Shown piece by piece: positions 11,325-59,530 of a stretch of DNA of 64,000 bases. The position numbers and the translations under genes were made by a program. Numbering within the stretch: position 1 is the stretch's first letter; each line of letters begins with the position of its first letter. The DNA comes from Zygnema cylindricum. Its lineage: Eukaryota > Streptophyta > Zygnematophyceae > Zygnematales > Zygnemataceae. The notes under the pieces are model-generated. The model was given only the letters and a program-made list of their open reading frames with translations. It did no database searches and had not been told where the DNA came from. The stretch is from assembly GCA_037447655.1 (NCBI GenBank), contig JBBHKE010000176.1, positions 595,455 through 659,454 of the forward strand. Direction: 5' to 3'.

Positions 11325-12318
11325 GGTTATGGGCCCACCCTCTATGGTGCCCATAATCAACAGATCTTGGTTTATTTAGTGGGAAGCTATGATGACAAAG
11401 GCATTGTGTGAGAAACAATATTGGGGTATTGTTAGTGGACTAGTAAAACTTACGTCTTAAGGAACTCCACCAAGGTTTGGAGGAGTGAGGTTTTTTGCAG
11501 CAAGATCTGCTCCAACGCAAGAGACAGATAATAGGTATAGCACTGTGTCTCAAAAGGGGGAAGGAAAGGAGACACCTCTCACTCCTATTGCCACGGCACC
11601 CGGAGCGGTAGCCAAGACGACAGAGGAAAACGACGTTCAGATGTGGGAGTAAACTAACATGAATGCCAAGCACTTCATTTTGAGGCACCTCACTTAAGGT
11701 TTGGCGACCTCTCACCTTCACATCTTCAAGGCCGAGGAGTTGTGGATGACCTTAGTGGAGATGTATAGAGCTGGAACCATTCAAGAGATCAAGTTGGTTG
11801 AGCAATAGCTGACGAGTTACACTTGCAAAGGAGGAAAGATGTTGGACAATTGCAATAATTTCTCTTGTCTGTACACGGAGATGGAAAGTGCTGGATGGAT
11901 AGGCATTATGAAGATAAAAGTTAACACTCTCATCATAAAGTTGCCGGAGGAGTATGAAAAAATAGTGTACCGAGTGCAAGAAATGGATGATAGTGCTATG
12001 AAGTGGAACACCGTGGTTCGAATGATACTTGTGCAGCAAAACACCATTGAGATTCGGAGAGGAGGAAAGAGAGTTCAAGCTCTAGTTGGCGAAACAGACC
12101 AGTGGAAAAAGGATCCGAAGAAGCCGTACAACAACTTCAAATGGGAAAAGAACCAATTTGAAGAACTGAGGACTCTAAAGGGCCTTTGCAATTTCTGCAA
12201 AAAGCCGGGGCACTTCATAGCAGATTGCATCAAGCTATCAGAGCTGAGGCTTCAAGAAAATTGTGGAGGGGGTTTTCTCGGAGGGAAGAAGAAAGCACTT
12301 GTGGTCACAAGAGTGTAA
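11325..12318 (+). pseudogene. Element B gag, several stops
   Basis: The primer site GGTTATGGGCCCACC (11325-11339) opens the frame VMGPPSMVPI. The gag then shows WGIVSGL, NMNAKHFILRHLT and MYRAGTIQ, and from 11839 an open stretch of 159 residues (MLDNCNNFSCLYTEMESAG ... NTIEIRRGGK). The zinc knuckle CNFCKKPGHFIADC is intact (about 12189-12230). In-frame stops occur in the first 500 bp (for example near 11374, 11458 and 11650). It is related to the gag of D and F throughout. Confidence 0.85.
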
Positions 12319-24566: not shown

Positions 24567-25513
24567 GTGATAAACCCCTCCACCCCTCATCTCCCCCCTC
24601 AACTCCCCCCTCCTCACACCTCCTCCCCCCTCCTCATTCAACACCCCTGTCCTCCCCTCTCCTCCACTCTCCTACCCTATCCTCCCCTCTCTCCTCTCTC
24701 CTCCCCCCTTCTCTCCCATATCCTCCCCTCTCCTCCCTTCTTCTCCCCCCTCTCCTACCCTCTCCTCCTCTCACCTCCCCTCTCCTCCCCGCTCCTCCCC
24801 CTTCTCCTCCCCCCTCTCTTTCCCTCTCCTTCCCTCTCCTTCCCTCTCCTCCCTTTTCCTCCCCTCTCCTCCCCTCTTACCTTCTTCTCCCCCCTCTCCA
24901 CCCCTCTCCTCCTATCTCCTCCCCTCTCCTCCCCTTTCCTTCCCTCACCTCCCCCCTCTCCTCCCTTCTCCTCCCTCTCTCCTCTCCTCTCTTCCCCTCT
25001 CCTCCCCTCTCCTCCCCTCTCCTCCCCTCTCCTCACCTCTCCTCCCCTCTCTTCCCCTTTCCTCCACTCTCCTCTGCTCTCCTATCCTCTCCTCCCCTCT
25101 CCTCCCCTCTCCTCCCCTCTCCTCATCTCTCCTCCCCTCTCCTCCCCTCTCCTCCCTTCTCCTTTCCTCTCTCTTCCCCTCTCCTTCCCTCTCCTCTCCT
25201 CTCCTTTCCCCCTTTCCTCCCCTCTCCACCCCTCTCCTCCCCTCTCCTCCCCCTTTCCTCCCCTCTCCCCCCACCTCTCCTCCCCTCTCCTCCCCTCTCT
25301 TCCCCTCTCCTCCTCTCTCCTCCCCCCTCTCCTCCCCTCTCCTCCCCTCACCTCCCCTCTCCTCCCCTCTGTACCCGTTTCCTTCACCCTCTCCTCCCCT
25401 CTCTTTCACTCTCCTCTCCTCTCATCCCCTCTCCTCCACCTCTCCTCCCCTCTCCTCCCCTCTCCTGCGATCTCCTCCCGTTTTCTCCCCTCTCCTCCCC
25501 TCTCCTCCCCTCT
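24567..25513. repeat. CTCCTCCCCT decamer satellite, about 950 bp
   Basis: Near-uninterrupted tandem repetition of CTCCTCCCCT and close variants. The plus strand is essentially all pyrimidine and the minus strand all purine (GGGGAGGAG). It leaves long open frames on both strands (for example 320 codons of Ser/Pro/Leu on plus and Gly/Glu/Arg on minus); these are repeat artefacts. The sequence could form G-quadruplex or triplex structures. Confidence 0.95.
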
Positions 25514-28512: not shown

Positions 28513-28517
28513 CAAAG

Positions 28518-29445
28518 TGTTGGTTTTTGAAAGCTTAAGTCTCAACAAATTTATAAGACGGCGGGAAAATAAATGTTTAGGGACACGCGTCGCCACTTGA
28601 AGCATAGTGAATGTTTTAATGGTACCGAAACCATCATTGGAACAGCGCAGCTGCGACGTAGATAAAACAAGCGCAGCTGTGGTTCATTCTTGATTTGGTT
28701 CGTACGGACGAACGCAGCTTGCGACGCAACAAGACAAACGCAGCTGCGGCTATTTTTGGTATGAGACAACGCAGCTGCTGCGAAGCTGCAAATAGTCAAA
28801 TGTTATCTAGAACAAGACTACGTTGCTACTGTTGAACACGATCGATTCAATCAACGAGATTCGAAGATGACTTATCGACAAATAACTTTACAGCAATTGA
28901 GTGGACACATCCGGACAAACGTAACTAGCCGGCAGCGAGTATTTATACAAACACTTAGTACGAATTCTCAATAATATTAGTTGTACAGTCGTAAATTAGT
29001 TTTAGCGTGATTAGGAGTAATTAGATCTTAGTGGTAGTTTTATGTTTTGACATATCTCTTAGGAACACCTGTATCGGCGGTACATCACTATGTAATAGGA
29101 CAACTAAAAGTAGATACTCACTAAGAGTACAAGAGTTAGGACTTAGAATGTATATTGTATCCAGACTTCCAAACTGTGTAATCAGCAAAATGTTTTTGGG
29201 AAACTTTTGAGTTGCATATCTTGGTGTATGTTGGATCAATTGTGCTAAAACTTTGGGAGTTGTTAGACTTTGTGATACACTATACTCTGGTATAGTTCAA
29301 AGCAGTTTTTGGACCATTGTGGCAACTCAATTGAGCTGTAGAAAGCAACTTTTTGATAGGATTCTTGGTAAGCTTCTGTGTTGAATTATGTCTAATTCTA
29401 CTACACTGCTGCAGCTCCACTTGCTCCAGTGGTCGTGGAACAACA
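28518..29445 (+). repeat. Element E 5' LTR
   Basis: 928 bp, TG...CA. The upstream part (28630-28795) contains five or six copies of a GC-rich motif centred on GCAGCTG (GCGCAGCTGCGACG, GCGCAGCTGTGG, CGCAGCTTGCGACG, ACGCAGCTGCGGC, ACGCAGCTGCTGCG). These contain the CAGCTG E-box core and may be promoter elements. No tRNA-like module was seen in this family. Confidence 0.85.
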
Positions 29446-30390
29446 CGTTATGGGCTTCTCATTAAGAATTCCTATCATTTTGGGGGAAAAATATGTTTAT
29501 TGGGTTGATATGGTGGAGACACACTTCGAAAATGTTAACCTTTTCGATATTTGGATGGTTCATTGTCGGAAACGGATCCGTCTTGGTCAAAGAAAAATTC
29601 GCAGGCTCGCTCACTTTTGAAATTCTGCATCTCATAAGAATTGGCTATGTCACGGATAAAAATGAAAAAGGTGATCGATATCTGGAAATCTCTCAAATAT
29701 GATTTTGAAAAGGCTAATGTCGAGTAAGAACTATTTTTGGCCGGAAAAATTTGGGACTACAAATACACGAGTGGCAATATAGCAGAATATTGCAACAAAT
29801 TTTGAGTTCTAATAGATTCTCATGCTTGTGCAGGTGGATCTTTTCCACATTTTTAGCAGGCTGCTTTGCTAATGAGAGGTCTTCCAACTACTATGAAAGT
29901 AGAGTCTAATAGGCTGAAACAGAAAGATAAAGCTAGCTGGTTGCTACATTTAACTATTAATTTGTTATTTGAAGAGGAAGCTGACTCTAAAATTCTTAAT
30001 GGTGAAAAACAAGCTGAGGCATTTTGCACAGAATTTGACAAAAAAACTCAATTTAATCAGCAGAGAAATCAGTTTAATCAAAATCAAAATCAGTTTAGAC
30101 AGTTTAATCAAAGAGGAAATAGACATTGTTTAAATGCATGTTTTTATTGTAATGAAAAAGGTCATGGATACAAATTCTGTCCTAAGCTTCAGAAAGCTAA
30201 TGAAACATGTATGTACTGGCGTGGATGGCAGTAGAGCCAATTTCATCAAGGCTTCACGGGATCATCACAACAAGGAAATGCACTTTTCTCGGCATCGTCA
30301 TCTTATCAAATGAGTCTCTTTCACTCCCTGACACCGAGGATGAAGATATTTTTGCTATGGCGACAGCAATGGAGGGAGCAAAAGACAATG
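29446..30390 (+). pseudogene. Element E gag
   Basis: Starts at the primer site (CGTTATGGGC, 29446-29455) in the frame VMGFSLRIPIILGEKYVYWVDMVETHFE, which aligns with VMGPHSRVPIFNGTGFIYWES of D. It shifts frame after about 29600. An open piece at 29866-30234 carries MLMRGLPTTMKVESNRL, an Asn/Gln-rich stretch and an intact zinc knuckle CFYCNEKGHGYKFC. Stops and frameshifts separate the pieces. Confidence 0.8.
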
Positions 30391-37159: not shown

Positions 37160-39786
37160 AAATCTACTAAACTTTTGTAGCTTATTCATTCTGATGTTTT
37201 CAACCCTGCAAAGGTACCATGTGCGGTGGGATGAAATATATGGTTACATTTACAGATGATTTTTCTAGGTTTACTAAGGTCTACTTTATGAAGGCTAAGA
37301 GTGAAGTCTTCACTCTTTTTCAACACTACAAAACGTGGGCGGAGAAACTACACGGTTTGCCGATTTTGGAGCTCAAATCGGACAATGGCGGGGAATACAC
37401 GTCAAAAGAGTTTGAAAACTTCTTACTCAAGGAAGGTATAACTCACAGACTAACTCTTCCATACTCTCCGGAACAAAATGGGGTTCGGAAAGACTAAATA
37501 GAACAATCACAGAAAGCTCTAGGTCCATGCTTGCGGATAAGAACATGGATCCGAAATTCTGGGCTAAAGCGTTAAACTGTGCAGTTTATATCAAAAATAG
37601 GATAGGTTCAAAATCAATAGCAACATCTCCTTACAAAATATGGACGGGTAGAAAACCGGATGTCAGTAATTTCAAAGTTTTTTGATGTAAATGCTTTATT
37701 TTGGATACGTCTACAGATAAATGGAAACAGGAACCTAAGGGGTTGCCGGGCATTTTGTTAGGGTATGATGATCATTCTAAAAGCTATAGAGTCTTTGTAT
37801 TTGAGAGGCAGAAAATAATCTTAGCAAGAAACATAGTTGTCAAAGATGAACTAGACTCGATAGACTTATTTAACATGACAGAGCAGCAAAGGCAGCACAA
37901 AGTACAGAATTATGTCTTTTTAGATTGCATTCAAAATATTGTTCCACCGATGCAACATTCACCAATATAAACACAAGATTCGGAACATAATCGAGCTTCG
38001 CAACAAACAGAGAGCAGTCACTATCTACAGATAGCAACCAGCGCAACGACTGGGAAACAAACCAACAGTCATTGCCAACAGATCGCAACCAGCGCAACAA
38101 GCGTAGCGCAAGGGATCTGACAATTTTAGCCTCACAATTTCCGAGGAAGAAGATCCAATAGCCGCCTCCAAACAAGCTCTCACTTTGTCTACTCGGCAAC
38201 CTCAGGGGAGCCTCTATCCATCCGGGAAGCCTTCTCATCACCGGAGTGGAATCACAGGATTGAGGCGGCAAACGATGAAATGAAGTCGATCATGGAGGCT
38301 CAGACATGGCAGCTTCAAGACCTTCCTCCGGATCGAAAAGAGATTCGTAGCAAATCGATATTCAAGGTGAAGTTAAATCGAGATAATACCATTGAACGAT
38401 ATAAGGCTAGACTTGTTGCAAAGGGATATAATCAAAAGGAAGGAATTGATTTTGAAAAAACTTTTTCTCCGGTTGTAAGATTTCCAACAGTAAGGATTTT
38501 GCTATCTCTAGCTGCTATAGATGATATGGAAATACATCAAATGGATGTAAAGATGGTATTTTTGCATGGAGAACTAGAAGATACCATTTAAATGTAGCAG
38601 CCTGAAATGTATGCAGAACCAGGAAAATAACACTTAGTATGCAAACTGCTAAAATCTTCGTATGGCCTTAAACAGGCCCCAAGGTAATGGAATTTAAAAC
38701 TTGATGAATTCTTAACTAGTCTAGGATTTAGAAAGATAAGCTCTAATCACTCAGTCTATGTTTTAAAATGTGAGAATGGAATTGTGTACATAGCGGTGTA
38801 TGTAGATGATTTACTACCAGTTAGCAAATCAATGGCAAAAATCAACAAAATTAAAATTGCTTTAAACTCACGATTCGAGATGAAATACCTTGGTGAGGCA
38901 AAATAAATTTTGGGCATCCAGGTAGAGAGGGACAGGAAAAACAAATTAATAAAATTGACTCAAAAGGAAGCTATAGGGAACATGTTAGATGAATATGGAA
39001 TGCATGGGGGCAAAAAGATGTGTAACACCAATGGAGTTTCGGCATAAGTTAGAAGGGGAAGAAACAGAACCGGGTGTTATTGTCAGTGAAACTTTTGAGC
39101 CAGGGGAGGATGATCCTATGGCTCTAATACCTTACAGATAGATAGTGGGAAGTCTAATATATTTCATGAACTGTACCCGTCCGGACATCGATGCAGCAGT
39201 TGGGGTACTGAGCAAAAATCTAGAGAATCCGAAGAAATCTGACCGTGATGCAGCAAAAAGAGTTTTAAGATACTTGGCAAGAAATAAAGACTTCAAACTC
39301 ACACTAGGTGGAGGAGAAGTGAAGCTGCAAACATGGAGTGATGCGAGCTATGGCGACATGCCAAGCCGAAAATCCACCACGAGATTTGTTCTGCAAATTG
39401 GGAACGGGACTTGCTGTTAGGGCAGCAAACTCCAGAAGGTCACGGCACAATCAACAATAGAGTCAAAATATATGGCAGCAAGCTCGGCCCTCAAAGAACA
39501 CTTATGGGTGAAATCCACGTTGCAAGAGCAACGATACATGCATGTTGGTCCACAGGTGATCTGGTGTGATAACCAAGCTGCCATTACCATTACCTCTAAC
39601 CCAAGTCACCACTTCAAAAGCAAGCTCATGGATTTAAGATTACTCTTTGTAAGAGAAAAAGTGTTCTCTAAAGTGATTAAATTATGTTATTTACCAGATG
39701 CTAAAATGATAGCAGACATGCTCACTAAAGCTCTTCCTGCTCCTAAATTGAAGTATTGTAGGGATGCAGTAGTATTAAGTGAATAG
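37160..39786 (+). pseudogene. Element E pol, part 2: integrase core, RT, RNase H
   Basis: Resumes with KSTKLL(stop)LIHSDVFNPAK and is open at 37219-37497: MVTFTDDFSRFTKVYFMKAKSE, LKSDNGGEYTSKEFENFL, YSPEQNG. A frameshift follows (RTITESSRSMLADKN ... TGRKPDVSNFKVF). A linker at 37975-38150 carries two ~48-bp copies containing GCAACCAGCGCAAC. RT runs from 38280 (TWQLQDLPPDRKEIRSK) with stops near 38589 and 38628; YVDDLL at 38800 is intact. RNase H at 39145-39786 ends AVVLSE and the TAG stop that is part of D's target site. Confidence 0.9.
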
Positions 39787-40826
39787 TGTAGAAACTAATG
39801 GATTTATTAGTATTTTCTAGGTCTAAATAGAAATAGAAAGAAGCCGAGGCAGTCTACCTCTAACTTCTCTCTCCAACTCTCAAACTTGTCGCAGTCACTG
39901 AGACATTGGAGAGGAAGCTAGAGCCATGGCTACCTTGGCTATCCTAAGGTTTACGGGAATTTTATTCTAGGGTTTATTTATTTATCTAAAAGATATGTGC
40001 CGGCAGCGGGATTTGATCACTGTACCTACCGGCCGGCATTGGGAAGTAGCCGGTAGCCTTAGCCGTTAAGTCTAGGATTAGTGTTAGGTACTATATAGTT
40101 CGATAATTATTTAAATGTGTACACATACGATAAATTCATTTAACTGTTACGGATTACGGGATACATAGATCCGGTACGGATAACGATACGGATTACGAAT
40201 CAATACCGCGCATTTGTTTCGGAAGTGAAATAAATACCGCGCATGTATTTATTACGGCCACGATTAAATCTGAATTTAATCGGACGGCCGGGATTAGCGC
40301 CGAGATCGCGGAGGAAGATTTCGGCGGTTTGTGGCCATCGCCACATCGGATGACGCGTGGCGAAATTCCGTTGGATTGTGGAATCTCCGGAGATTACGGC
40401 ACCGAATTCGGATTTGACATGTGTCGACATTTTGGCCATGTCGTACAATGTCCGTACATAAAGTACACCGGCGGCTGTACTTTTACGTACGGAACTCAAT
40501 TCTGATTGGTTCCGTACATCAGTAGATAGAGTCTGTGAGAGAGATAGGACTTAGAAAAATTAGAAGATAGGACCCTCTCTCCCAGAGAGCTTCTGTACAA
40601 AAGGTCAACTTTGACCCTCCATAACTTACTGCTCAGGGGAGCAAATTCAGAGATTCTTTTTGCTACCGACTCAGGGGAGTCTTGTCTTCACAGGGGTGCA
40701 GTTGGTCAGGGTATTTGTCTGCCAGGGTGGCAGTTATTTTTGCTGGAACACAGAGGGGTCAGAATTATCCTAGAGGCTTCTTGGAAGCTGTCTACTCTGA
40801 GGACTTATGGAGGTCTCAGAGTTTCA
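39787..40826 (+). repeat. Element D 5' LTR
   Basis: 1040 bp, TGTAGAAACTAATGG...GAGTTTCA. It includes TAGAGCCATGGCTACC near 39920, the antisense tRNA-like module at 39998-40075, a CTCTCTCCCAGAGAGCTTCTG inverted-repeat element before a weak TATA (TACAAAAGG near 40596), then GGTCAACTTTGACC and CATAACTTACTGCTCAGGGG. The same blocks lie at the promoter of C and F. Confidence 0.95.
39998..40075 (-). other. tRNA-like module in the D 5' LTR (antisense)
   Basis: Minus-strand CTTAACGGCTAAGGC resembles a Ser/Leu-type D arm. GTGATCAAATCCC resembles a B-box/T arm (8 of 11 consensus positions), with AGTG/CGCT able to pair. Between them a long GC-rich arm (CCGGC...GCCGG) is like the extended variable arm of class II tRNAs. 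It is degenerate. The same module is in the 3' LTR at about 45390-45467 and in both LTRs of F (52291-52375, 57668-57750). Confidence 0.5.
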
Positions 40827-43800
40827 GGTTATGGGCCCACACTCTAGGGTACCAATCTTTAATGGAACTGGCTTCATATACTGGGAAAGTATTATGATAG
40901 GAGCTCTATGCGAAAAAAGGTTTTGGGGGATAGTGAGTGGACGGTTGGGGCGTCCATCAAGTCTTGGAATTCCTCCAGGGTTTGGAGGAACCAGATTCAC
41001 CAGGAAAGAGGACCCACCTTCAACGGAGGAAACAAAGGAAGGAGAGGTGGTGGACAAAGGAAAGGAGAAGGAGACGACCACACCAATAGCAACTGGTTCC
41101 ACATTCATGTCACCTATTCCGAGGAATGAGGAGAATGATACTGAAACCTGGGACTTCAACAATATGGCGGCAAAGCACTTCATCCTACGCCATCTCACTC
41201 AAGGACTTGCATGTCCTCATTTGCAGGTAGAAAGGGCATCCGATCTTTGGATGGCTCTCATAGAGATGTACCGAAGTGGTACGATTCAGCAACAACAGTT
41301 GGCTGATCAGAAAGTTAAGGAGTATGTATACAAAGGGGGAAATATGTTGGATTTTTGCAATGAGCTTGCTACACTCTTCATGGAGCTAGAGAGTGCGGGA
41401 AAAGCCTTTAGTGAAAAAGAAAAGGTTAACTGTTTACTGATGAAGTTACCTGATGAGTTCGTGAACATAGTTTACCGTGTGCAGGACTTGCCTGACTCAA
41501 GGTGGATATGGAACTCAGTGGTAGGGATGATCCTGGTTCAAGAAAATACAATTGAGATCCGAAGGGGAGGAAAGAGTGGCCAAGCCTTGGCAACAGCGAC
41601 TGATTGGAGGAACAGGGATTCCCGAAAACCGGTCGGAAACTATGGGGGTAGGGAGCAGAAAAAACAAGCAGATGAGTTCGAACCAAGGGCTCCCAAAGGT
41701 CTATGTCATTTTTGTAAGAAACCGGGGCACTATATGGCAGAGTGCACAAAGCTAACCGAGCTTCGGTTAAAGGAGGGGCAGACCGGTGGTACCCCGAGAG
41801 GAAAGAAAAAGGCCCTTGTCACACAGGTACTTGAGGCTGAATCCGAGGACGAGGACGATGAGCTCCTTTTGGATGAGGAGTTGGAGGCGAAAAATGAGGT
41901 CGAAATTCCACGGAGGCAGAAATGTGCTTACGGTGGATTGAAAGGTGAAGCAGGCTGGATTGTAGATTCAGGTGCCTCCATGCACATGTGTAAGGATAGA
42001 CACCTGTTCACTAAGATAAGAAAGATTCCCACCGTAGAGATAGAGTACGGGGATGGGAGGATAGTCACCACTACTCTTGTAGGATCGGTAGATCTAAAAG
42101 TGTTAGTAAAAGGAAAGACATCCATATTAACATTCTCCGATGTATTGTTTATTCCGGAGCTGAACAAAAATCTTATCTCTACATCAGTATTAGATGATAA
42201 GGGTTTTTTTACTAGCACTAGGGAAGGAGTCTTTACTGCTAGTTTTGAGGATGATGTCTATTTCATTGCTGAGAAAGGTAGCCATGGGATGTTTAGGCTG
42301 ATCTTAAGTAATGAAAAGAAGAAACTTTACTATGCTGGTGTTCATGATATTATGATGTGGCATAAGAGGCTTGGGCATGTGAATCTAGATAAGTTAAGAG
42401 AGATGAAAAAGATGGGAGTGGTGGATGGGATTCAGTTCAGTGAGAGTGATGATATAAGTGATTGTAGTGGATGTGCTCAAGGTAAAGCACACAGATTACC
42501 CTTTCCTAAAACAGCCACCTATAAGGGAGAAAAACTTCTAGATCTAGTACACACAGATATTTGGGGACCGGCTAGAGTGCCCTCACCGGGGGGGAAGAGA
42601 TTTATGATGACTATAACTGATGATTGGTCTCGGTATTCCCGGGTATATTTTTTGAAAAACAAGTCAGAAGCTGAGGATTGTTTTAGACAATATAAAGCAT
42701 GGAGCGAAAAACTCCATGAAACTCCAATCAAGAGAGTAAGGAGTGACAATGGTGGAGAGTATACTTCTAACTAGTTTGAGGATTTTCTGAGGGAAGATGG
42801 GGTTCAACACCAAAAGACAGTTCCAGAAAATCCGGAACAGAATGGGGTAGCTGAAAGGTTAAATAGAACACTAAGTGATAGTGCTAGAAGTATGTTGTCA
42901 GATAAAAAGATAGGAAAAAGGTTTTGGGCAGAAGCAATGAACTGTGCTAATTACCTCAAGAATAGAGTTCTTACTTCAGCTATAAAAGATCAAACACCTT
43001 ATGAGAGATGGACAGGCCGGAAACCAGACATATCTCACTTAAAGGTTTTCGGCAGTCAAGTATTCAGTCTAGATACTGATCGGTCCAATTGGAAGCTAGA
43101 TCCTAAAGGAAAACCGGGATACTTATTAGGATATGATGAAGATGTTAAAGGATATAGAGTTTATGACTTAAAAGGGGAAGATATAATCTTAGTAAAACAT
43201 CTAGTAGTTATGGATGAAGGAAAGTCTGTGGATCCCTTCAAATATACAAAGTCAGTAAAAATCAGATTTGAGTCAGAAAATTCCGATGACTTTGAGCTTC
43301 CTAACTATCCAGGTTTTAGAGAAGATGACATTCTTGCAGGAACAAATCAGACCGAAAAGGACTCGGCTGTGGAAACTCCAGTGACAACTCTACTCGAAGC
43401 GGAAGACGTGGTGGAAATTGATTCGGAATCAAGGGATAGGGGAGAAGCTGAGTTTGTTCGAAAGAATCCACGAGAACCATCTATTCCGGCATCAGATTTT
43501 GAGGGGGGGAGGAGAAGTAGCAAAAGACTGCAAGAAAAACAGGTTAATAACAAGGTAACTAAACTATCTCATCAAGATGAACCTCAATCTTATAGAGAGG
43601 CGATGACTTGTCCAGAAAAAAACCGGTGGAAGACAGCCATCAATGAGGAGATGGCTTCAATCATGGCAGCCGATACTTGGGAGCTGGTGGACTGTCCACC
43701 TAACCGAAAACCAATCGGTTGTAAGTGGGTCTTCAAATTAAAACTGAACCCAGATAACACAATCGAACGCTACAAGGCCAGATTAGTGGCAAAGGGATTT

Positions 43801-45165
43801 ACACAAAAGGAAGGAATTGACTACGAGGAAACCTTTGCCCCGGTGGTCAGATTTCCCTCCGTCCGCATACTTCTCAGTTTAGCAGCGGCGGAAGACATGG
43901 AAGTGCATCAGATGGACATCAAGACAGCCTTTCTGCATGGAGAATTGGAAGAGGAGATCTTCATGCGACAACCCGAAGGTTTTGTGGAGGAAGGAGAGGA
44001 GAGTAAGGTATGCCGGCTGATTAAATCTCTTTATGGTTTGAAACAGGCACCTCGACAATGGAATAAGAAGCTTGATGAGTTTCTTACCGGTCTGGGATAT
44101 ATTCGGATCAGCTCAGATCACTCAATCTATGTTTTTGAAGATGAGGAAGGTTTGATATTTATTGCAATTTATGTTGATGATTTGCTTGTATTAAGTAAAT
44201 CAATGGAAAAAATTAACAAACTGAAAACCGATCTTAAGGGGAGATTTGAAATGAAGGATATGGGAGAAGCAAGATATATTTTGGGAATTCAAGTAGAGAG
44301 AGACCGGAAAAGGAAAATTATAAAACTGACTCAAAAGGAAGCAATAGGGAACATGCTTGAAAAATTTCAAATGGATAAAGCTAATAGTTGTACAACTCCA
44401 ATGGAGTTGAAAAAGGGAAGTGAGGGGAGTGAGGAAGAAGGAGTCATAGTCTTAGACGAGGAATTATCTCCTGATGAACAGAAGTTCATGCAGACTATTC
44501 CTTACAGGCAAGTAGTGGGAAGTCTAATCTATTTTATGAATTGTACCCGGCCGGATTTAGCTGCAGCTGTAGGAGTGCTGAGTAGAAGTCTAAATGCTCC
44601 CACTAAGAAGGACTGGGAGGCAGCTAAGAGAGTCCTTAGATATTTGGTAGGAACTAGAGATCTATGGTTGCATTTGGGTGGGGAGAATACTGACATCACT
44701 ACTTGGAGTGATGCCAGTTATGGTGATGCTCCGATGAGGAGATGTACTTCTGGATATGTATTATATGTGGGTGATGGGGCTTGCTGTTGGAGTAGCAAAC
44801 AGCAAAAGGTTATTGCTCAGTCCACCATGGAGGCTGAGTATATGGCCTCTTGCTCTGCTGTAAAAGAATTGATGTGGGTCAAGTCTTTGCTTGGTGAGCT
44901 TGGTCACCTTAAGAGTGGTGTGCAGAAAATATTTTGTGATAATCAGGCAGCAATCGCTATTTCTGCCAATCCTAAACACCATTTTAAAGCCAAACACATG
45001 GACATCAGACTCAGCTTTGTTAGAGAGAAAGTAGAAAACAAAATAATCAGTTTAGAGTACAGACCAGATAGTGAGATGGTAGCAGATATGATGACCAAAC
45101 CTGTGCCTTCCCCTAAGCTAATTTTTTGCAGGGAGAAGTGTGGTCTGAAATTAAAGATTGACTAG
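40807..45165 (+). pseudogene. Element D gag-pol polyprotein, one nonsense codon
   Basis: A single frame of 1452 codons encodes the whole copia polyprotein. Landmarks by residue: gag from 1; zinc knuckle CHFCKKPGHYMAEC at 300-313; protease WIVDSGASMHMC with catalytic Asp 387; integrase zinc region WHKRLGHVN...CSGCAQGK from 518; integrase catalytic Asp 584, Asp 647 and Glu 683 (35 residues between the last two, as in DD35E enzymes); RT motif YVDD at 1122-1125; RNase H with Asp 1302 (TWSDASYGD), STMEAEYMASC and FCDNQAAI. The only defect is TAG at 42772-42774 (codon 656) where F has CAG (Gln): a single C-to-T change. The first ATG lies in the LTR; the second (residue 9) is in the primer site. The domain order protease-integrase-RT is diagnostic of copia. 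Confidence 0.95.
40827..40841 (+). other. Element D primer-binding site inside the gag frame
   Basis: GGTTATGGGCCCACA directly follows the LTR end. It complements GTGGGCCCATAACC of the initiator tRNA-Met anticodon arm (tRNA sequence from memory) and is read in frame as (Q)VMGPH. The ATG at 40831 pairs with the CAU anticodon. Confidence 0.75.
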
Positions 45166-45178
45166 AAAATAAGGGGAG

Positions 45179-46218
45179 TGTAGAAACTAATGGATTTATT
45201 AGTATTTTCTAGGTCTAAATAGAAATAGAAAGAAGCCGAGGCAGTCTACCTCTAACTTCTCTCTCCAACTCTCAAACTTGTCGCAGTCACTGAGACATTG
45301 GAGAGGAAGCTAGAGCCATGGCTACCTTGGCTATCCTAAGGTTTACGGGAATTTTATTCTAGGGTTTATTTATTTATCTAAAAGATATGTGCCGGCAGCG
45401 GGATTTGATCACTGTACCTACCGGCCGGCATTGGGAAGTAGCCGGTAGCCTTAGCCGTTAAGTCTAGGATTAGTGTTAGGTACTATATAGTTCGATAATT
45501 ATTTAAATGTGTACACGTACGATAAATTCATTTAACTGTTACGGATTACGGGATACATAGATCCGGTACGGATAACGATACGGATTACGAATCAATACCG
45601 CGCATTTGTTTCGGAAGTGAAATAAATACCGCGCATGTATTTATTACGGCCACGATTAAATCTGAATTTAATCGGACGGCCGGGATTAGCGCCGAGATCG
45701 CGGAGGAAGATTTCGGCGGTTTGTGGCCATCGCCACATCGGATGACGCGTGGCGAAATTCCGTTGGATTGTGGAATCTCCGGAGATTACGGCACCGAATT
45801 CGGATTTGACATGTGTCGACATTTTGGCCATGTCGTACAATGTCCGTACATAAAGTACACCGGCGGCTGTACTTTTACGTACGGAACTCAATTCTGATTG
45901 GTTCCGTACATCAGTAGATAGAGTCTGTGAGAGAGATAGGACTTAGAAAAATTAGAAGATAGGACCCTCTCTCCCAGAGAGCTTCTGTACAAAAGGTCAA
46001 CTTTGACCCTCCATAACTTACTGCTCAGGGGAGCAAATTCAGAGATTCTTTTTGCTACCGACTCAGGGGAGTCTTGTCTTCACAGGGGTGCAGTTGGTCA
46101 GGGTATTTGTCTGCCAGGGTGGCAGTTATTTTTGCTGGAACACAAAGGGGTCAGAATTATCCTAGAGGCTTCTTGGAAGCTGTCTACTCTGAGGACTTAT
46201 GGAGGTCTCAGAGTTTCA
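45179..46218 (+). repeat. Element D 3' LTR
   Basis: 1040 bp, preceded by ATAAGGGGAG and followed by the duplication AATAG. Nearly identical to the 5' LTR. An antisense 99-codon open frame is identical in both LTRs, but I see no reason to call it a gene. Confidence 0.95.
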
Positions 46219-46223
46219 AATAG

Positions 46224-46385
46224 CTGAGTTGCTACACTCCTATACTGCCATGCTGCGCTAGTCCGACAGCAGGAATGTAGTGGGACTATGTGACTTGCTA
46301 AAATTGCTACGTTGCTATGCTGCGATGCTTCGCTAGTTCGACATTGCAACTGCGTTGGCATAATGAGTCTAAAGCATTAGGGGAG
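46224..46385 (+). other. Element E 3' untranslated segment
   Basis: The tail of E between its pol stop codon (used by D as target) and its 3' LTR. Rich in GTTGCTA/GCTGCG words (TTGCTACGTTGCTATGCTGCG) and ending in the polypurine tract ATTAGGGGAG. No coding sequence. Confidence 0.8.
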
Positions 46386-47314
46386 TGTTGGTTTTTGAAA
46401 GCTTAAGTCTCAACAAATTTATAGGACGGCGGGAAAATAAATCTATAGGGACACGCGTCCTCACTTAAAGCACAGTGAATGTTTTAATGGTACCGACACC
46501 ATCATTGGAACAGCGCACTTGCGACGCAGATAAAACAAGCGTAGCTGCGGTTGATTCTTGATTTGGTTCGTACGCACGAACGCACCCAGTGACGCAACAA
46601 GACAAACCCAGCTCCAGCTATTTTTGGTATGAGACAACGCAGCTGCTGCGAAGCTGCAAATAGTCGAATGTTATCTGGAACTGGACTACGTTGCTACTGT
46701 TGAACACGATCGAGTCAACCAACGAGATTCGCAGATGACTTATCGACAGATAACTTTACAACAACTGAGTGGACACATCCGGACAAACGTAACTAGCCGG
46801 CAGCGAGTATTTATACAAACACTTAGTACGGATTCTCAATAATATTACTTGTATAGTCGTAAATTAGTTTTAGCGTGATTAGGAGTAACTAGATCTCAGT
46901 GGTAGTTTTATGTTTTGACATATCTCTTAGGACCACCTGTATCGGCGGTACATCACTATGTAATAGGACAACTAAAAGTAGATACTCACTAAGAGTATAA
47001 GAGTTAGGACTTAGAATGTATTTTGTATCCACACTTCCAGACTGTGTAATCTGTATATTGTTTTTGGGAAACTTCTGAGTTGCATATCTTGGTGTATGTT
47101 GGATCAATAGTGCTGAAACTTTGGGAGTTGTCACACTTTGTGATACACTATACTGTAGTATAACTTGAAGATGTTTTTGGACCATTGTGTCAACTTAATT
47201 GAGCTGTAGAAAGCAGCTGTTTGATAAGATTCTTGGTAAGCTTATGTGTTGAATTATGTCTACTTCTACTACTACTGCTGATGCTCCACCTGCTCCAATT
47301 GTCGTGGAACAACA
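46386..47314 (+). repeat. Element E 3' LTR
   Basis: 929 bp, TGTTGGTTTTTG...GGAACAACA followed by the duplication CAAAG (47315-47319). Many substitutions relative to the 5' LTR, so E is clearly older than D. Confidence 0.9.
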
Positions 47315-47319
47315 CAAAG

Positions 47320-52038: not shown

Positions 52039-52075
52039 GACAGTGTTGATTTCTGTGAAATCCGGGATTCGATAT

Positions 52076-53102
52076 TGTAGAAATTAATAGTCTTTTAAAG
52101 TATTTTCTAGGTCTGAAAAGAAATAAGAAAGAAGCCAAGGCAATCTACCTCTAACTTCTCTCTCCAACTTCTCAAACTTGTCGTAGTCACTGAGAAATTG
52201 GAGAGGGAGTTAGAGCCATGGCTACCTAGGCTATCCAGAGGTTTACGGGAAAATATATTTTAGTTAGGGGTTTTATTTACTAAAAGATATATGCCGGCCA
52301 CACGATTAGATCCTGGTACCTACCGGCCGGCAGACTGCCGATAACTGTGAGCCTAAGCCGTTAAGTCTAGAATCAATGTTATGTACTATGACGTTTGATA
52401 ATTAATTAAACACTTATACGTAGGATAGTTCATTTAACTGAAATAGTTTTACGGGAGACATAGATCCAGTAATGTAAAAGTACGGATTACAATACTGATT
52501 TGAAAAGAATACCGCACATTTATTTATTACGGCTACGATTAAATGTGAATTTAATCAGACGACCGAAATTAAACATCGAGATCGCGGAAGAGAATTTCCG
52601 CGGTTTTTGATCATAGCCACATCGGATGACACGTGGCGGAATGACATTGGATCGCGGCATCTCCGAGGATTAAGGGAGCGAATCCGTATATACCACGAGT
52701 CGACATCCAGGCCATGTCGTACAATGTTCGTATAGAAAGTACACCAGCAGCTATACTTTTGTGTACTGAAATGCAATCTGATTGGCTCCGTACATCAGTA
52801 GATAGAGTCTTTGAGAGAGATAGGACTTAGAAAAATTTGAAGATAGGACCCTCTCTCCCAGAGAGCTTCTATACCAAAGGTCAACTTTGACCCTCCATAA
52901 CTTACTGCTCAGGGGAGCATATTCAGAGATTCTTTTTGCTATCGACTCAGGGGATTCTTGCCTTCACATGGGTGACGTTGGTCAGAGTTATTGCCTGCTA
53001 AGGTGGCAGTTATTTTTGCTGAAACACAAAGGGGTCAAGGTTATCCTAGAGGCTTCTTGGAAGCTGTCCACTTTGAGGACTTATGGAGGTCTCAGAGTTT
53101 CA
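52076..53102 (+). repeat. Element F 5' LTR
   Basis: 1027 bp; the same block structure as D (GAGCCATGGCTACC, antisense tRNA-like module at 52291-52375, CTCTCTCCCAGAGAGCTTCT, GGTCAACTTTGACC, CATAACTTACTGCTCAGGGG). Confidence 0.92.
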
Positions 53103-54190
53103 GGTTATGGGACCACCCTCTAGGGTTCTAATGTTTAATGGAACTGGCTTCATATACTGGGAAAGTATGATGATAGGAGCTCTATGCGAAAAAAGGTTTT
53201 GGGGGATAGTGAGTGGACGGTTGGGGCGTCAATCAAGTCTTGGAATTCCTCTAGGGTTTGAAGGAAGCAGATTCACCAGAAAAGAGGATCCACCTTCAAC
53301 GCAAGAAACAAAAGTAGGAGAGGTGGTAAACAAAGGAAAGGAGAAGGAGGCGACCACACCAATAGCAACTGGTTCGGCATTCATGTCACCTATTCCGAGG
53401 AACGAGGAGAATGATATTGAAACCTGAACTTCAACAATATGGCGGCAAAGTACTTCATCCTACGCCATCTCACTTAAGGACTTGCATGTCCTCATTTGCA
53501 TGTAGAAAGGGCATCCGATCTTTAGATGGCTCTCATAGAGATGTACCAAAGTGCTACAATTCAGCAATAAGAGTTGGCTGATCAGAAAGTTAAGGAGTAT
53601 GTAAACAAATGGGGGAAGATGTTGGATTTTTGCAATGAGCTTGCTACACTCCTCATGGAGCTAGAGAGTGCGGGAAAAGATTTTAGTGAAAAAGAAAGGG
53701 TTAACTGTTTACTGATGAATTTACCCGATGAGTTCAGGAACATAGTCAACCATGTGCAAGACTTGTCGGACTCAAGGTGGATATGGAACTCAGTGGTAGG
53801 GATGATTTTCGTTCGGGAGAATACGATTGAGATCCGAAGGGGAGGAAAGAGTGGCCAAGCCTTGGCAACTGCCACCGATTGGAGGAACAAGGATTCCTGA
53901 AAACCGGTCGGAAATTATGGGGGGAGGGAGCAAAAAAATCAGACCGACGAGTTTGGACCAAGGGCTCCCAAAGGTTTATGTCATTTTTGTAAGAAACCTG
54001 GGCACTATATGGCAGAGTGCATTAAGCTAACCGAGCTTCGGTTAAAGGAGAGGCAGACTGGTGGTACCCCGAGAATAAAGAAAAAGGTCGTTGTGACACA
54101 GGTACATGAGGCGGAATCCAAGGACGAGGACAATGAGCTCCTTTTGGATGAGGAGTTGGAGGCAAAAACGAGGTCAAAATTCCACGAAGG
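53083..54190 (+). pseudogene. Element F gag
   Basis: Begins MEVSEFQVMGPPSRVLMFNG, with the first ATG in the LTR and the second in the primer site. Stop at 53425 after NDIET, where D has NDTETWDFNN, caused by a small deletion. Resumes at 53574 (MADQKVKEYVNKWGKMLDFC ... NTIEIRRGGK) to a stop at 53898. The zinc knuckle CHFCKKPGHYMAEC is intact near 53980-54020. An acidic linker (EAESKDEDNELLLDEELEAK) precedes the protease. Confidence 0.9.
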
Positions 54191-54199
54191 TAGAAATGT

Positions 54200-57100
54200 G
54201 CTTACAGTGGATTGAAAGGTGAAGCAGACACGATTGTAGATTCAGGTGCCTCCATGCACATGTGTAAGGATAGGCACCTGTTCACAAAGATAAGAAATAT
54301 TCCCACCGTAGAGATAGAGTACGAGGATGGGAGGATAGTCACCACTACTCTTGTAGGATCGGTAGATTTGAAAGTGTTAGTAGAAGGAAAGACATCCATA
54401 GTAACATTCTCCGATGTATTGTTTATTCCGGAGCTGAACAAAAACCTCATCTCTACATCCGTATTAGATGATAAGGGTTTATTTACTAGCACTAGGGAAG
54501 GAGTCTTTACTGCTAGTTTTGAGGAGGATGTCTATTTCATTGTTGAGAAAGGTAGCCATGGGATGTTTAGGCTGGTTTTAAGTAATGAAAAGAAGAAACT
54601 TTATTATGCTAGTGTTCATGATATTATGATGTGGCATAAGAGGCTTGGGCATGTGAATCTCGACAAACTAAGAGAGATGAAAAAGATGGGAGTGGTGGAA
54701 GGGATTAAGTTTAGTGAGAATGATAATATAAGTGATTGTAGTGGATGTGCTCAAGGTAAAACACACAGATTACCCTTTCCTAAAACAACCATCTATAAGG
54801 GAGAAAAAATTCTAGATCTTGTACACACAGATATTTGTGGACCGGCTAAAGTGCCCTCACCAGAGGGGAAGAGATTTATGATGACTATCACTGAAGATTA
54901 GTCTCGGTATTCCCGAGTGTATTTTTTGAAAAACAAGTCCGAAGCTCAGGATTGTTTTAGACAATATAAAACATGGAGCGAAAAACTCCATGAAACTCCA
55001 ATCAAGAGAGTAAGGAGTGACAATGGTGGAGAGTATACTTCTAACCAGTTTGAGGATTTTCTGAGGGAAGATGGGGTCCAACACCAAAAGACAGTCCCAG
55101 AAAACCCGGAACAGAATGGGGTAGCTGAAAGGTTAAATAGAACACTAAGTGATAGTGCTAGAAGAATGTTGTCAGATAAAAAGATAGAAAAAAGGTTTTG
55201 GGTAGAAGCAATGAACTGTACTAATTACGTCAAAAATAGAGTTCTCAGTTCAGCTATAAAAGATGAAACACCTAATGAGAGATGGACAGGCTGGAAACCA
55301 GACATATCTCACTTAAAGGTTTTCGGCAGTCAAGTATTCAGTCTAGATATGGATCGGTGTAATTCGAAGCTAGATCCTAAAAGAAAACCGGGATACTTAT
55401 TAGGATATGATGAGGATGTTAAAGGATATAGAGTTTATGATCTAAAAAAGGAAGATATAATCTTAGTAAAGCATCTAGTAGTTATGGATGAAGGAAAGTC
55501 TGTGGATCCCTTCAAATATACAAAGTCAGTAAAAATCAGATTTGAGTCAGAAAATTTCGATGACTTTGAGCTTCCTAACTATCCAGGTTTTAGAGAAGAT
55601 GACATTATTGCAGATACAAATCAGACCGAAAAAGACTCGATTGTGGAAACTCCAGTGACAACTCTACCCGAAGCGGAAGACGTGGTGGAAATTGATTCGG
55701 AATCAGGGGATAGGGGAGAAGCCGAGTTTGTTCGAAAGAATCCACGAGAACCATCTATTCCGGCCTCAGATTTTGAGGGGGGGAGGAGAAGTAGCAAAAG
55801 ACTGCAAGAAAAACAGGTTAATAACAAGGTAACTAAATTATTTCATCAAGATGAACCTCAAACGTATGGGGAGACAATGACTTGTCTAGAAAGAAACCGG
55901 TGGAAGACAGCCATCAATGAGGAGATGGCCTCAATTATGGCAACTGATACTTGGGAGCTGGTGGATTGTCCACCTAACCGAAAACCAATCGGTTGTAAGT
56001 GGGTTTTCAAATTAAAACTGAACCCAGGTAACACAATCGAGTGCTACAAGGCCCGACTAGTGGCAAAGGGATTTACACAAAAGGAGGGAATTGACTACGA
56101 GGAAACCTTTGCTCGGTGGTCAGATTTCCCTCCGTCCTCATACTTCTCAGTTTAGCAGTAGCGCAAGACATGGAAGTGCACCAGATGGACATCAAGACAG
56201 CCTTTTTGCATGGAGAATTGGAAGAGGAGATCTTCATGCGACAACCCGAAGAGTTTGTGGAGGAAGGAGAGGAGAGTAAGGTATGCCGGCTGATTAAATC
56301 TCTTTATGGTTTGAAACAGGCGCCTCGACAGTGGAATAAGAAGCTTGATGAGTTTCTTACCAGTCAAGGATATATCCAGATCAGCTCAGATCACTCAATC
56401 TATGTTTTTGAAGATGTGGAAGGTTTTATATTTATTGCAATTAATGTTGAAGATTTTCTTGTCTTAAGTAAATCAATGGAAAAAATTAATAATTGAAAAC
56501 AGATCTTAAGGGGAGATTTGAAATGAAGGATATGGGGGAAGCAAAATATATTTTGGGAATTCAAGTAGAGAGAGACCGAAAAAGGAAAATTATAAGATTG
56601 ACTCAAAAGGAAGCAATAGGGAACATGCTTGAAAATTTTCAAATGGATAAAGCTAATTGTTGTACAATTCCAATGGAGTTGAAGAAGGGAAGTAAGCGGA
56701 GTGAGGAAGAAGGAGTCAAAGTCTTAGACGAGGAATTATCTCCTGAAAAACAGAAGTTCATGCAAACTATTCCTTACACTTAAGTAGTGGGAAGTCTAAT
56801 CTATTTTATGAATTGTACCCGGGCGGATTTAGCTGCAGCTGTAGGAGTGCTAAGTAGAAGTCTAAATGCTCCCACTAAGAGGGATTGGGAGGCAGCTAAG
56901 AGAGTCCATAGATATTTGATAGGAACTAGGGATCTATGGTTGCATTTGGGTGGGGAGAATACTGACATCACTACTTGGAGTGATGCCAGTTATGGTGATG
57001 CTCCGATGAGGAGATGCACTTCTGGATATGTATTATATGTGGGTGATGGGGTTTGCTGTTGGAGTAGCAAACAACAAAAAGTTATTGCTCAGCCCACCAT

Positions 57101-57437
57101 GGAGGCTGAGTATATAGCCTCTTGCTCTGCTGTAAAAGAATTGATGTGGGTCAAGTCTTTGCTTGGTGAGCTTGGTCACCTTAAGAGTGATGTGCAAAAA
57201 TTTTTATGTGATAATCAGGCAGCAATCGCTATTTTCGCCAATCCTAAACATCATTTTAAAGCAAAACACATGGATATTAGACTCAGTTTTGTTAGAGAGA
57301 AAGTAGAAAACAAAATAATCAGTTTAGAGTACCGACCAGATTGTGAGATGGTAACAGATATGATGACCAAACCTGTGCCTTCCCCTAAGCTAATTTTTTG
57401 CAGGGAAAAGTGTGGTTTGAAATTAAAGATTGACTAG
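54200..57437 (+). pseudogene. Element F pol (protease to RNase H)
   Basis: The protease site TIVDSGASMHMC is intact. 54212-54901 is open through the integrase zinc region (WHKRLGHVN...CSGCAQGK) to a TAG replacing the Trp of TDDW. 54917-56155 is open through the integrase core (RSDNGGEYTSNQFEDFL, NPEQNGVAERL) into RT. A one-base loss near 56113 (EETFAR for EETFAPVVR) shifts the frame. RT continues at 56116-56496, where the catalytic motif reads NVEDFL instead of YVDDLL, so RT would be inactive. A further shift near 56490 and a stop near 56781 precede RNase H (56787-57437). Confidence 0.92.
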
Positions 57438-57450
57438 AAAATAAGGGGAG

Positions 57451-58507
57451 TGTAGAAATTAATGGTCTTTTAAAGTATTTTCTAGGTCTGCATAGAAATA
57501 AGAAAGAAGCCAAGGCAATCTACCTCTAACTTCTCTCTCCAACTTCTCAAACTTGTCGTAGTCACTGAGAAATTGGAGAGGGAGTTAGAGCCATGGCTAC
57601 CTAGGCTATCCAGAGGTTTACGGGAAAATATATTTTAGTTAGGGGTTTTATTTACTAAAAGATATATGCCGGCCACACGATTAGATCCTGGTACCTACCG
57701 GCCGGCAGACTGCCGATAACTGTGAGCCTTAGCCGTTAATTCTAGAAGTAGTGTTACGTAATATAGGGTTTGATAATTATTTAGACATTTATACGTAGAA
57801 TAGTTCATTTAACTGGACTTGATTACAGGAGACATATATCCAGCAAATGTAAAAGTACAGATACTGGTACGGATAAGAAACCAATTCCGCGCATTTGTTT
57901 CTTTAGTGAAACGAATACCGCGCATGTATTTATTACGGCTACGATTAAATGTGAATTTAATCAGACAGCCGGAATTTACGCCAAGATCGCGGAAGAGGAT
58001 ATCGACGATTTGTGGTCATCGCCACATCGGATGACACGTGGCGGAATGACATTGGATCGCGGCATCTCCGAGGATTAATGGAGCGAATCCGGACATACCA
58101 CGTGTCGACATTTAGGCAATGTCGTACAGTATTTGTACAGAAAGTACAACGGCAGCTCTACTTTTGTGTACGGAGGGGAAATCTGATTGGCTCCGTACAT
58201 CACTAGATAGAGTCTGTGAGAGAGATAGGACTTAGAAAAAATTAGAAGATAGGACCCTCTCTCCCAAAGAGCTTTTGTACAAAAGGTCAGCTTTGACCCT
58301 CCATAACTTACTGCTCAAGGGAGCAAATTCAAATATTCTCTTTGCTATCGACTCAGAGGAGTCTTGCCTTCACAAAGGTGAAGTTGGTCAGTGTTATTTT
58401 ATGTCGAGTGGCAGCTTTTTTTACTAAAACACAAAGGGGTCAGGGTTATCCTAGAGGCTTCTTGGAAGCTGTCCACTCTGAGGACTTATGGATGTCTCAG
58501 AGTTTCA
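57451..58507 (+). repeat. Element F 3' LTR
   Basis: 1057 bp after ATAAGGGGAG, followed by the duplication GATAT. Antisense tRNA-like module at about 57668-57750. It differs from the 5' LTR by numerous substitutions and indels. Confidence 0.92.
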
Positions 58508-58532
58508 GATATGTCCTATACTAGGGAAAAGT

Positions 58533-58604
58533 GAGCCGGCCAGGGATCGCACCTGTGACCTCTGACTTGAGTTGTTAGAGCACTACACACTCTGCCACCA
58601 GCTT
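58533..58604 (-). ncRNA. tRNA-like sequence in the TRIM LTR (copy 1)
   Basis: 72 nt, homologous to copy 2. Acceptor AAGCTGG/CCGGCTC (one A-C mismatch at the end, one G-T pair); GGCAGAGTGTGTAGTGC as D arm; T arm CAGG-TGCGATC-CCTG with B-box GGTGCGATCCC. It is more mutated than copy 2 but still foldable. ACTTTTCCC follows as in copy 2. Confidence 0.6.
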
Positions 58605-58816
58605 GATGTAGAGATTGGTGGATCTGTACCTATTTATTTTAGGCAGCATCGAGTGTGACGTATCACATTTTACCCAGTATTCAACCGGCATTCACATGCC
58701 AATCCAACACCCCCCCTCACGAAACGTCGATCACACCATCTGCAATCCCGCTGTCTCGGATACCATGTTGATTTTCGTGAATCAGGGATTCCGTACATCC
58801 CATACTAGGGAAAAGT

Positions 58817-58887
58817 GAGCTGGCCAGGGCTTGAACCTGAACCTCTAACTTGAGCTATAAGAGCACTAACCACTGTGCCACCAGCTC
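58817..58887 (-). ncRNA. tRNA-like cloverleaf in the TRIM LTR (copy 2)
   Basis: 71 nt on the minus strand. Acceptor stem GAGCTGG/CCAGCTC (7 perfect pairs); D arm GCAC-AGTGGTTA-GTGC; anticodon arm CTTAT-AGCTCAA-GTTAG (4 of 5 pairs); 4-nt variable region; T arm TCAGG-TTCAAGC-CCTGG. The B-box GGTTCAAGCCC is close to consensus and the A-box region TGGCACAGTGG is good. Position 33 is G, not U, so decoding is unlikely; the loop would give anticodon CTC. ACTTTTCCC follows; its T4 run could act as a Pol III terminator. Expression is not shown. Confidence 0.7.
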
Positions 58888-58997
58888 CATGTAGAGCTTG
58901 GCGGGTCTGTACCTATTTATTTTAGGAGGCTTCAAGTGTGACGTATCACATTCTACCCTATATTGAACCGGCATTCACGTGCTAATCCAACAGACAG

Positions 58998-59530
58998 TTC
59001 TCCCTCCCAATAAAGATTCGTCCGGGAAAACTGTAGATTTCCATATATGTGGAGATTTTCGCATGCTGAACACTGCCACCATCTTTGACCGGTATCTGAT
59101 GCCGACCTCGGAAGAAATATTCTACTCCCTTGCTGGTGCCACTATCTACTCCACTTTGGACATGAAAAACGGTTTCCACAAGATTGCTATAAAACCAAAG
59201 CAACAGAAAATAATAACATTTTGGGCAGGTTCTTGGCTTTATGAATGGATTTATATGCCATTCGAGCTTAATAATAGGCTGGTCAAATTCCAACGGGCAA
59301 TGGACGAAGTAATCCGAGGAATCGATTGTGTTCGGTGCTATATTGATGATGTGATCATCTTCTCAAATACCTTTGAAGAACACTTGGAGCATATCCAAAT
59401 TGTCCTCCAAGCCCTTCAAGCTGCGCGCTTCAAATGTCACCCGGGCAAAGGTATTTTTGGGGTATATAAAACCATTTACCTTGGTTATGGGAACTCTGGG
59501 TCCCCACATGGTCAAGGTAGCAGCCCTTAA
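58998..59530 (+). pseudogene. Element G reverse transcriptase, catalytic part
   Basis: Reads TVLPPNKDSSGKTVDFHICG, DFRMLNTATIFDRYLMPTSE, YSTLDMKNGFHKIAIKP (first catalytic Asp), TFWAGSWLYEWIYMPFELNN (the usual YE.. MPFGL.NAPA region, changed) and CYIDDVIIFSNTFEEHLEHI, which holds the YIDD active site. The order of motifs and the FxxHLxHxxxVL sequence are those of Ty3/gypsy RTs. It shifts frame near 59500, in the YLGH motif. Confidence 0.9.

Follow-up and report, generated by a model that had tools for sequence, protein, structure and literature searches.

A TRIM with tRNA-derived sequences in its LTRs, probably of the Helenus type, in Zygnema cylindricum

On the minus strand of a 64-kb stretch of Zygnema cylindricum DNA (the window) lies a short non-coding element whose two repeats each carry a tRNA-like sequence. 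Is it an LTR retrotransposon with a tRNA-derived unit in its LTRs, a chance pair of SINEs, or a carrier of genuine host tRNA genes? We conclude, with a probability of roughly 0.85, that it is a Helenus-type TRIM, that is, a non-coding LTR retrotransposon with tRNA-derived sequence in its LTRs.

Re-analysis of the window returned the same figures as the sequence-only reading: 512 bp on the minus strand when the nested Copia element F is left out of the length, LTRs of 229 and 227 bp with TG...CA ends, and a 56-bp interior. The adjacent primer-binding site (PBS), the G7 polypurine tract (PPT) and the exact GACAG duplication were likewise all confirmed. The features are as follows.

52039..52043 (left) and 58993..58997 (right): GACAG target-site duplication of the TRIM, exact
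58992-58766, minus strand: 5' LTR, 227 bp, TG...CA
58816..58887, minus strand: tRNA-like sequence of the 5' LTR (Rfam RF00005, 44.7 bits, E 2.9e-6 for the whole window)
58811..58814, minus strand: T4 run, Pol III-terminator-like, just 3' of the 5' LTR tRNA-like part (element position 179)
58765-58710, minus strand: interior, 56 bp, non-coding, with TGGTATCCGAGAC at its start and G7 at its end
58753..58765, minus strand: primer-binding site TGGTATCCGAGAC, adjoining the 5' LTR; initiator-tRNA-Met type, by resemblance
58710..58716, minus strand: polypurine tract G7, directly before the 3' LTR
58513..58709, minus strand: first part of the 3' LTR, 197 bp (whole 3' LTR 229 bp, TG...CA)
58532..58604, minus strand: tRNA-like sequence of the 3' LTR, decayed (RF00005, 23.5 bits)
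58527..58530, minus strand: T4 run, just 3' of the 3' LTR tRNA-like part (element position 463); proposed end of a Pol III RNA
52044..52075, minus strand: last part of the 3' LTR, 32 bp, cut off by Copia F
52076..58507, plus strand: Copia element F, 6.4 kb, nested in the 3' LTR of the TRIM and not part of it
52071-52075 and 58508-58512: GATAT duplications of Copia F

The PBS sequence of the TRIM family is TGGTATCGGAGCC. Copia F is a later insertion than the TRIM. The LTRs of the TRIM are 84.6% identical (K2P 0.175), which marks the window's element as an old copy. If one GACAG is retained, a single reading frame of the three runs from a stop roughly a dozen codons upstream across the junction and into the reverse transcriptase of a neighbouring Gypsy element. 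The TRIM thus probably inserted into a Gypsy pol gene, either already broken at that time or broken since.

Both tRNA-like sequences are on the minus strand, which is the sense strand of the TRIM, and Rfam RF00005 placed them within one base of the positions first proposed (58533-58604 and 58817-58887). The Infernal search suggested for the LTRs thus recovered a tRNA match in each, above the gathering score of 29 bits in the 5' LTR and below it in the 3' LTR. ARAGORN called a single tRNA in the whole window, at 58815-58887 in the 5' LTR. The description of this sequence as a cloverleaf with good boxes stood in part: in the alignment, the acceptor stem (7/7) and D stem (4/4) are complete and the A box is perfect, but the anticodon and T stems are one pair short each and the B box has 2 mismatches in 11 positions. 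Moreover, the cloverleaf was not the minimum-energy structure when either of the two window sequences was folded alone. No further T4 run lies between the two tRNA-like parts, which is unremarkable (P 0.93 under element composition, 0.14 under window composition).

A search of the genome (352.8 Mb in 2689 contigs) with an LTR query gave at least 66 matches, a lower bound since the best 40 of 711 candidates were scored. Our sample of copies, all places with listed LTR matches except the window's own, comprised 39 loci: 18 with two LTRs, one with three and 20 with one near-complete LTR, 59 LTRs in total. The sequence-only reading had called for a search for further full copies flanked by 5-bp duplications, and the 39 loci include such copies with the LTR/interior structure of the window element. 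Exact 5-bp duplications flanked 10/18 two-LTR, 0/1 three-LTR and 6/20 one-LTR loci (16/39 overall), compared with 2/1950 comparisons in a shifted-position control. Eight of the 18 two-LTR loci had no exact duplication; element ends were set by a script and the LTR ends of L009 and L038 are visibly wrong, so some of these misses may be false. Among the 19 multi-LTR loci, a 57-bp interior was found in 16, an opening TGGTATC in 16 and a closing run of at least G7 in 16. TGGTATC also adjoins the LTR in three of the 20 one-LTR loci, which are for that reason read as cut-off elements.

Two-LTR copies such as L010 and L012 measure about 515 bp, and the identity of LTR pairs ranged from 0.891 to 1.000 (19 pairs). 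L027 and L047 look recent, since each combines zero substitutions between its own LTRs with exact duplications. The 5' and 3' LTRs of the window were 84-91% and 82-90% identical, respectively, to other copies, whose mutual median was 94.4%; within its family, the copy in the window is thus both old and outlying. At L026 and L052 the TRIM takes a three-LTR tandem form, resembling the tandem arrangements reported in Cassandra and in further TRIMs (PMC7215508, PMC4717578). At L036, a U2 snRNA match (68-195, 118.8 bits) lies ~400 bp from the TRIM copy. At L062 and L059, the sequence that follows the TRIM (CTTGGAAGCTGTCC...) matches the Copia F LTR seen in the window, which shows that this Copia type is also a target of TRIM insertion. 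Pattern scans of viral and genome contig collections (non-plant; one pattern each) yielded 0 matches and say little.

An ordinary SINE, with the LTR-like repeats produced by two chance tandem insertions, would explain why each repeat holds one tRNA-like unit, and it predicts that the unit also occurs by itself. We therefore used the 72-nt tRNA-like part by itself as a genome query and obtained at least 41 matches including the window's (best 40 of 563 candidates scored). Of the 40 other matches, 37 were flanked by 20 bp or more of LTR sequence on either side and the other three belonged to LTRs that are truncated or broken (L059, one; L061, two), so that no free-standing unit was present among the 40 scored matches. 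This search yielded 15 further stretches, of which 11 had a complete LTR, three of these with exact duplications. The tandem-SINE reading is also at odds with the TG...CA ends, the PBS directly after the first repeat and the G-run before the second, the exact duplications of 16/39 loci, a repeat that reaches 105 bp before and ~50 bp after the tRNA-like part, and a window 5' LTR that lacks any run of five or more A. The genome copies contradict this reading, as do the LTR ends, PBS, PPT and duplications, and it was rejected as vanishingly improbable. A SINE inserted within an LTR was also dropped: the direct repeat around the window's tRNA-like part is only a 5-mer, a length reached by 84% of shuffles. 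The TRIM thus resembles SINE2 elements in its putative tRNA-derived A/B box promoter, its non-coding nature and its multiple copies, but differs in having LTRs, a PBS, a PPT and 5-bp duplications, with none free-standing among the scored copies.

We then compared the tRNA-like part across the 59 LTRs. ARAGORN (default settings) called a tRNA in 50, all in sense orientation and 47 of them named Glu(ctc), and made no call in nine. With cmscan, 41 Rfam tRNA matches exceeded the gathering score, at 29 of the 39 loci and with up to 56.9 bits; the other 10 loci had no Rfam tRNA match above gathering. Scored against TGGCNNAGTGG and GGTTCGANTCC, the A box was perfect in 52/59 LTRs and the B box had at most one mismatch in 40/59. 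All pairs were formed in the acceptor stem of 47/59 copies, the D stem of 53/59, the anticodon stem of 47/59 and the T stem of 41/59, and 1175 of 1230 stem pair cells were formed when summed over copies. A T4 or T5 run followed the tRNA-like part within 15 nt in 59/59 LTRs of the 39 other loci, and 57/59 LTRs contained a single run of four or more T. Position 33 was G in 56/59 copies. Decoding tRNAs have U at this position.

This last observation bears on whether the element has captured or spread genuine tRNA-Glu(CTC) genes of its host, as the 47 Glu(ctc) calls and stems each complete in 41-53/59 copies might suggest. Besides G33 in 56/59 copies, the host tRNAs themselves argue against such an origin: no parent was recognized among 32 distinct host tRNAs (40 stretches from 63 scored RF00005 matches; 24,620 candidates), the closest being a tRNA-Trp that agreed at 51/67 positions, although this sample, with 11 isotype/anticodon calls and without tRNA-Glu, could have missed the parent. 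We consider host tRNA-Glu genes highly improbable. In the same sample, the best match to the primer site was 9/13, again with tRNA-Trp. One practical consequence is that automatic tRNA annotation of the host genome may count TRIM LTRs as tRNA-Glu genes, as ARAGORN does.

Conservation along the LTR was close to uniform, with mean majority fractions of 0.965 in the tRNA-like part, 0.964 before it and 0.970 after it, and the boxes and stems show no clear excess of conservation over the remainder of the LTR. Of 226 four-column windows, 6 are kept in all copies and TTTT is among them, so its full conservation is weak evidence. As the copies are close relatives, conservation among them says little about selection.

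How could such an element be transcribed? In the model that we favor, the tRNA-like sequence of the 5' LTR would act as R region and internal Pol III promoter. Pol III would start at or just before it, read through the T4 of the 5' LTR and stop at the T4 of the 3' LTR, giving a ~360-nt RNA with the tRNA-like stretch as an R repeat at both ends. The LTR would then consist of ~105 nt of U3, ~77 nt of R (tRNA-like part plus T4) and ~45 nt of U5. The like ends of the RNA would serve strand transfer, priming would rely on an initiator-Met-type tRNA, and copying and integration would be carried out by proteins of a putative autonomous LTR retrotransposon. Cassandra transcripts are similarly described as running from the 5S of one LTR to the 5S of the other (PMC10886601). 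Against the model, some of the Pol III traffic should terminate at the T4 of the 5' LTR after ~80 nt, and read-through is therefore required. That the R region coincides exactly with the tRNA-like part, so that one tRNA gene would serve as promoter, terminator and strand-transfer repeat with its decoding residue given up (G33, 56/59), is a tentative proposal to which we give somewhat less than even odds. If true, an LTR-retrotransposon RNA synthesized by Pol III would offer a tractable test case in a plant whose genome holds recent copies.

Alternatively, this may be a Pol II TRIM of the ordinary kind that carries its tRNA-like stretch, left in the LTR by the past insertion of a SINE or tRNA, as a passenger that has ceased to drive transcription. 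Such an element would still be Helenus by structure, so this alternative overlaps with our main conclusion and disputes only the transcription step. An AT-rich stretch, AAAATAAATA, that precedes the tRNA-like part by 27-36 bp in the window 5' LTR and is present in the 3' LTR too, would suit it, as would an AAATAA within 50 bp upstream in 28/59 other LTRs and the lack of excess conservation over the rest of the LTR. However, most copies keep their stems (each in 41-53/59), the A box, a near-perfect B box and T4, and the same boxes are kept in other Helenus families (PMC10886601). We regard a passenger role as unlikely. A CAA motif is described upstream of plant tRNA genes (PMC11700998); CAA occurs at -13 in the window 5' LTR but within 50 bp in only 10/59 other LTRs, and was dropped as a family feature. 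With many copies, stems complete in most of them and T4 in every LTR examined, the claim that Pol III can transcribe an LTR retrotransposon from a tRNA-like LTR becomes directly testable in plants.

The surroundings of the element provided several further observations. Across eight repeat pairs of the window, C/T differences occurred at 94/489 CG, 124/596 CHG and 214/2666 CHH sites, which reads as the footprint of CG and CHG methylation and thus points to a plant. One pair (28516-29446 / 46384-47315) showed 17/54 differences at CHG, far above CG (3/62). Copia element E (39783-46222), with 99.7% identical LTRs and long gag-pol frames, is a recent insertion with its older relative F nearby. Primer sites of the sequence GGTTATGGGCCC were found at 11325, 24195 (minus strand), 31853, 40827 and 53103, the last with one mismatch; in four Copia elements (11325, 31853, 40827 and 53103) the site directly follows the LTR end. 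We take GGTTATGGGCCC to pair with the anticodon arm of initiator tRNA-Met. Priming by half-tRNA-Met has been reported in plant Copia lineages for Osser, Bryco and part of Gymco-II only (PMC6317226). The Bryco and Gymco groups come from mosses and gymnosperms.

The window also contains, at 24590-25513, ~90 copies of a TCTCCTCCCC-like 10-bp unit with 77% matches. Elsewhere, the host assembly carries PF00504 genes, with chlorophyll a/b-binding clusters among contigs C519, C2590, C1116, C610, C1077 and C889. Separate clusters of weaker PF00504 matches in the same contig set may be ELIP-like; expanded ELIPs are typical of desiccation-tolerant plants. One PF00504 protein had its best total with the two-domain LHC chain 9vfj (stretches of 273 and 237 bits), whereas its best single stretch was with 5xnl chain 3 (421.6 bits), next to which 7oui chain 2 ('Chlorophyll a-b binding protein 3') stood among the matches. 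We read these matches as Lhcb3, the 5xnl and 7oui chains being presumably those of pea and Arabidopsis. A rust fungus as source of the window, an idea prompted by the half-tRNA-Met primer sites of the Copia elements and by the existence of Helenus in fungi, was rejected because of the excess of CHG transitions and the chlorophyll-binding genes in the assembly. Taken by themselves, these features would suggest a land plant, probably not a flowering one.

Finally, we compared the element with known systems. The sequence-only reading knew of no named family of this design, a claim that no longer holds: TRIMs with tRNA-derived sequences in their LTRs were named Helenus in 2024 (Kojima 2024, PMC10886601). 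Their published hosts are fungi, animals and one plant, Selaginella moellendorffii, and the families were described on sequence evidence alone, Pol III transcription being left unproven there (PMC10886601). The family studied here shares the structural characters of Helenus that were compared. Rfam and ARAGORN both place tRNA-derived sequence inside the LTRs, in the window and in genome copies. The element is non-coding, has two LTRs and, with 512 bp in the window, is well within the size of a short TRIM (<1000 bp in the Helenus screening). PBS and PPT stand at the interior ends (TGGTATC and at least G7, each in 16/19 multi-LTR loci), and 5-bp target duplications, as in plant and fungal Helenus, occur at 10/18 two-LTR, 6/20 one-LTR and 3/11 further loci. 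An A box (TRGCY...YGG) and a B box (GGTTC) are present in genome copies. Helenus-1_SMo of S. moellendorffii has a 120-bp LTR and an 85-bp interior (PMC10886601), as opposed to ~229 and 57 bp here, and the name Helenus is applied here by structure, not by sequence comparison.

In the open-licence PMC literature, titles and abstract openings among the matches listed pointed to only PMC10886601 and a meeting report mentioning it as work of this kind. The kind is thus already known, and we found no earlier report of the present family in that literature. A survey of 48 plant genomes described 156 TRIM families, and the word tRNA is absent from its main text (PMC4717578). Membership in Cassandra was rejected because the window held no 5S rRNA match at the Rfam gathering score, and none at E up to 1 in 58500-59000. 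Ajax follows the same TRIMp3 idea as the TRIM described here but carries partial 5S rRNA and comes from two nemerteans (PMC10886601). The family shares with Cassandra, another plant TRIM, LTRs that contain a Pol III-type small-RNA gene, a PBS of the Met type (TGGTATCAGAGC in Cassandra, PMC7215508) and tandem copies, and differs in holding a tRNA where Cassandra LTRs hold 5S rRNA. The window anatomy and the genome copies together support the analogy first drawn for this locus, a Cassandra-like design in which a tRNA replaces 5S. The family represents a second plant case of Helenus, with many copies; among the copies examined, two have substitution-free LTR pairs and exact duplications.
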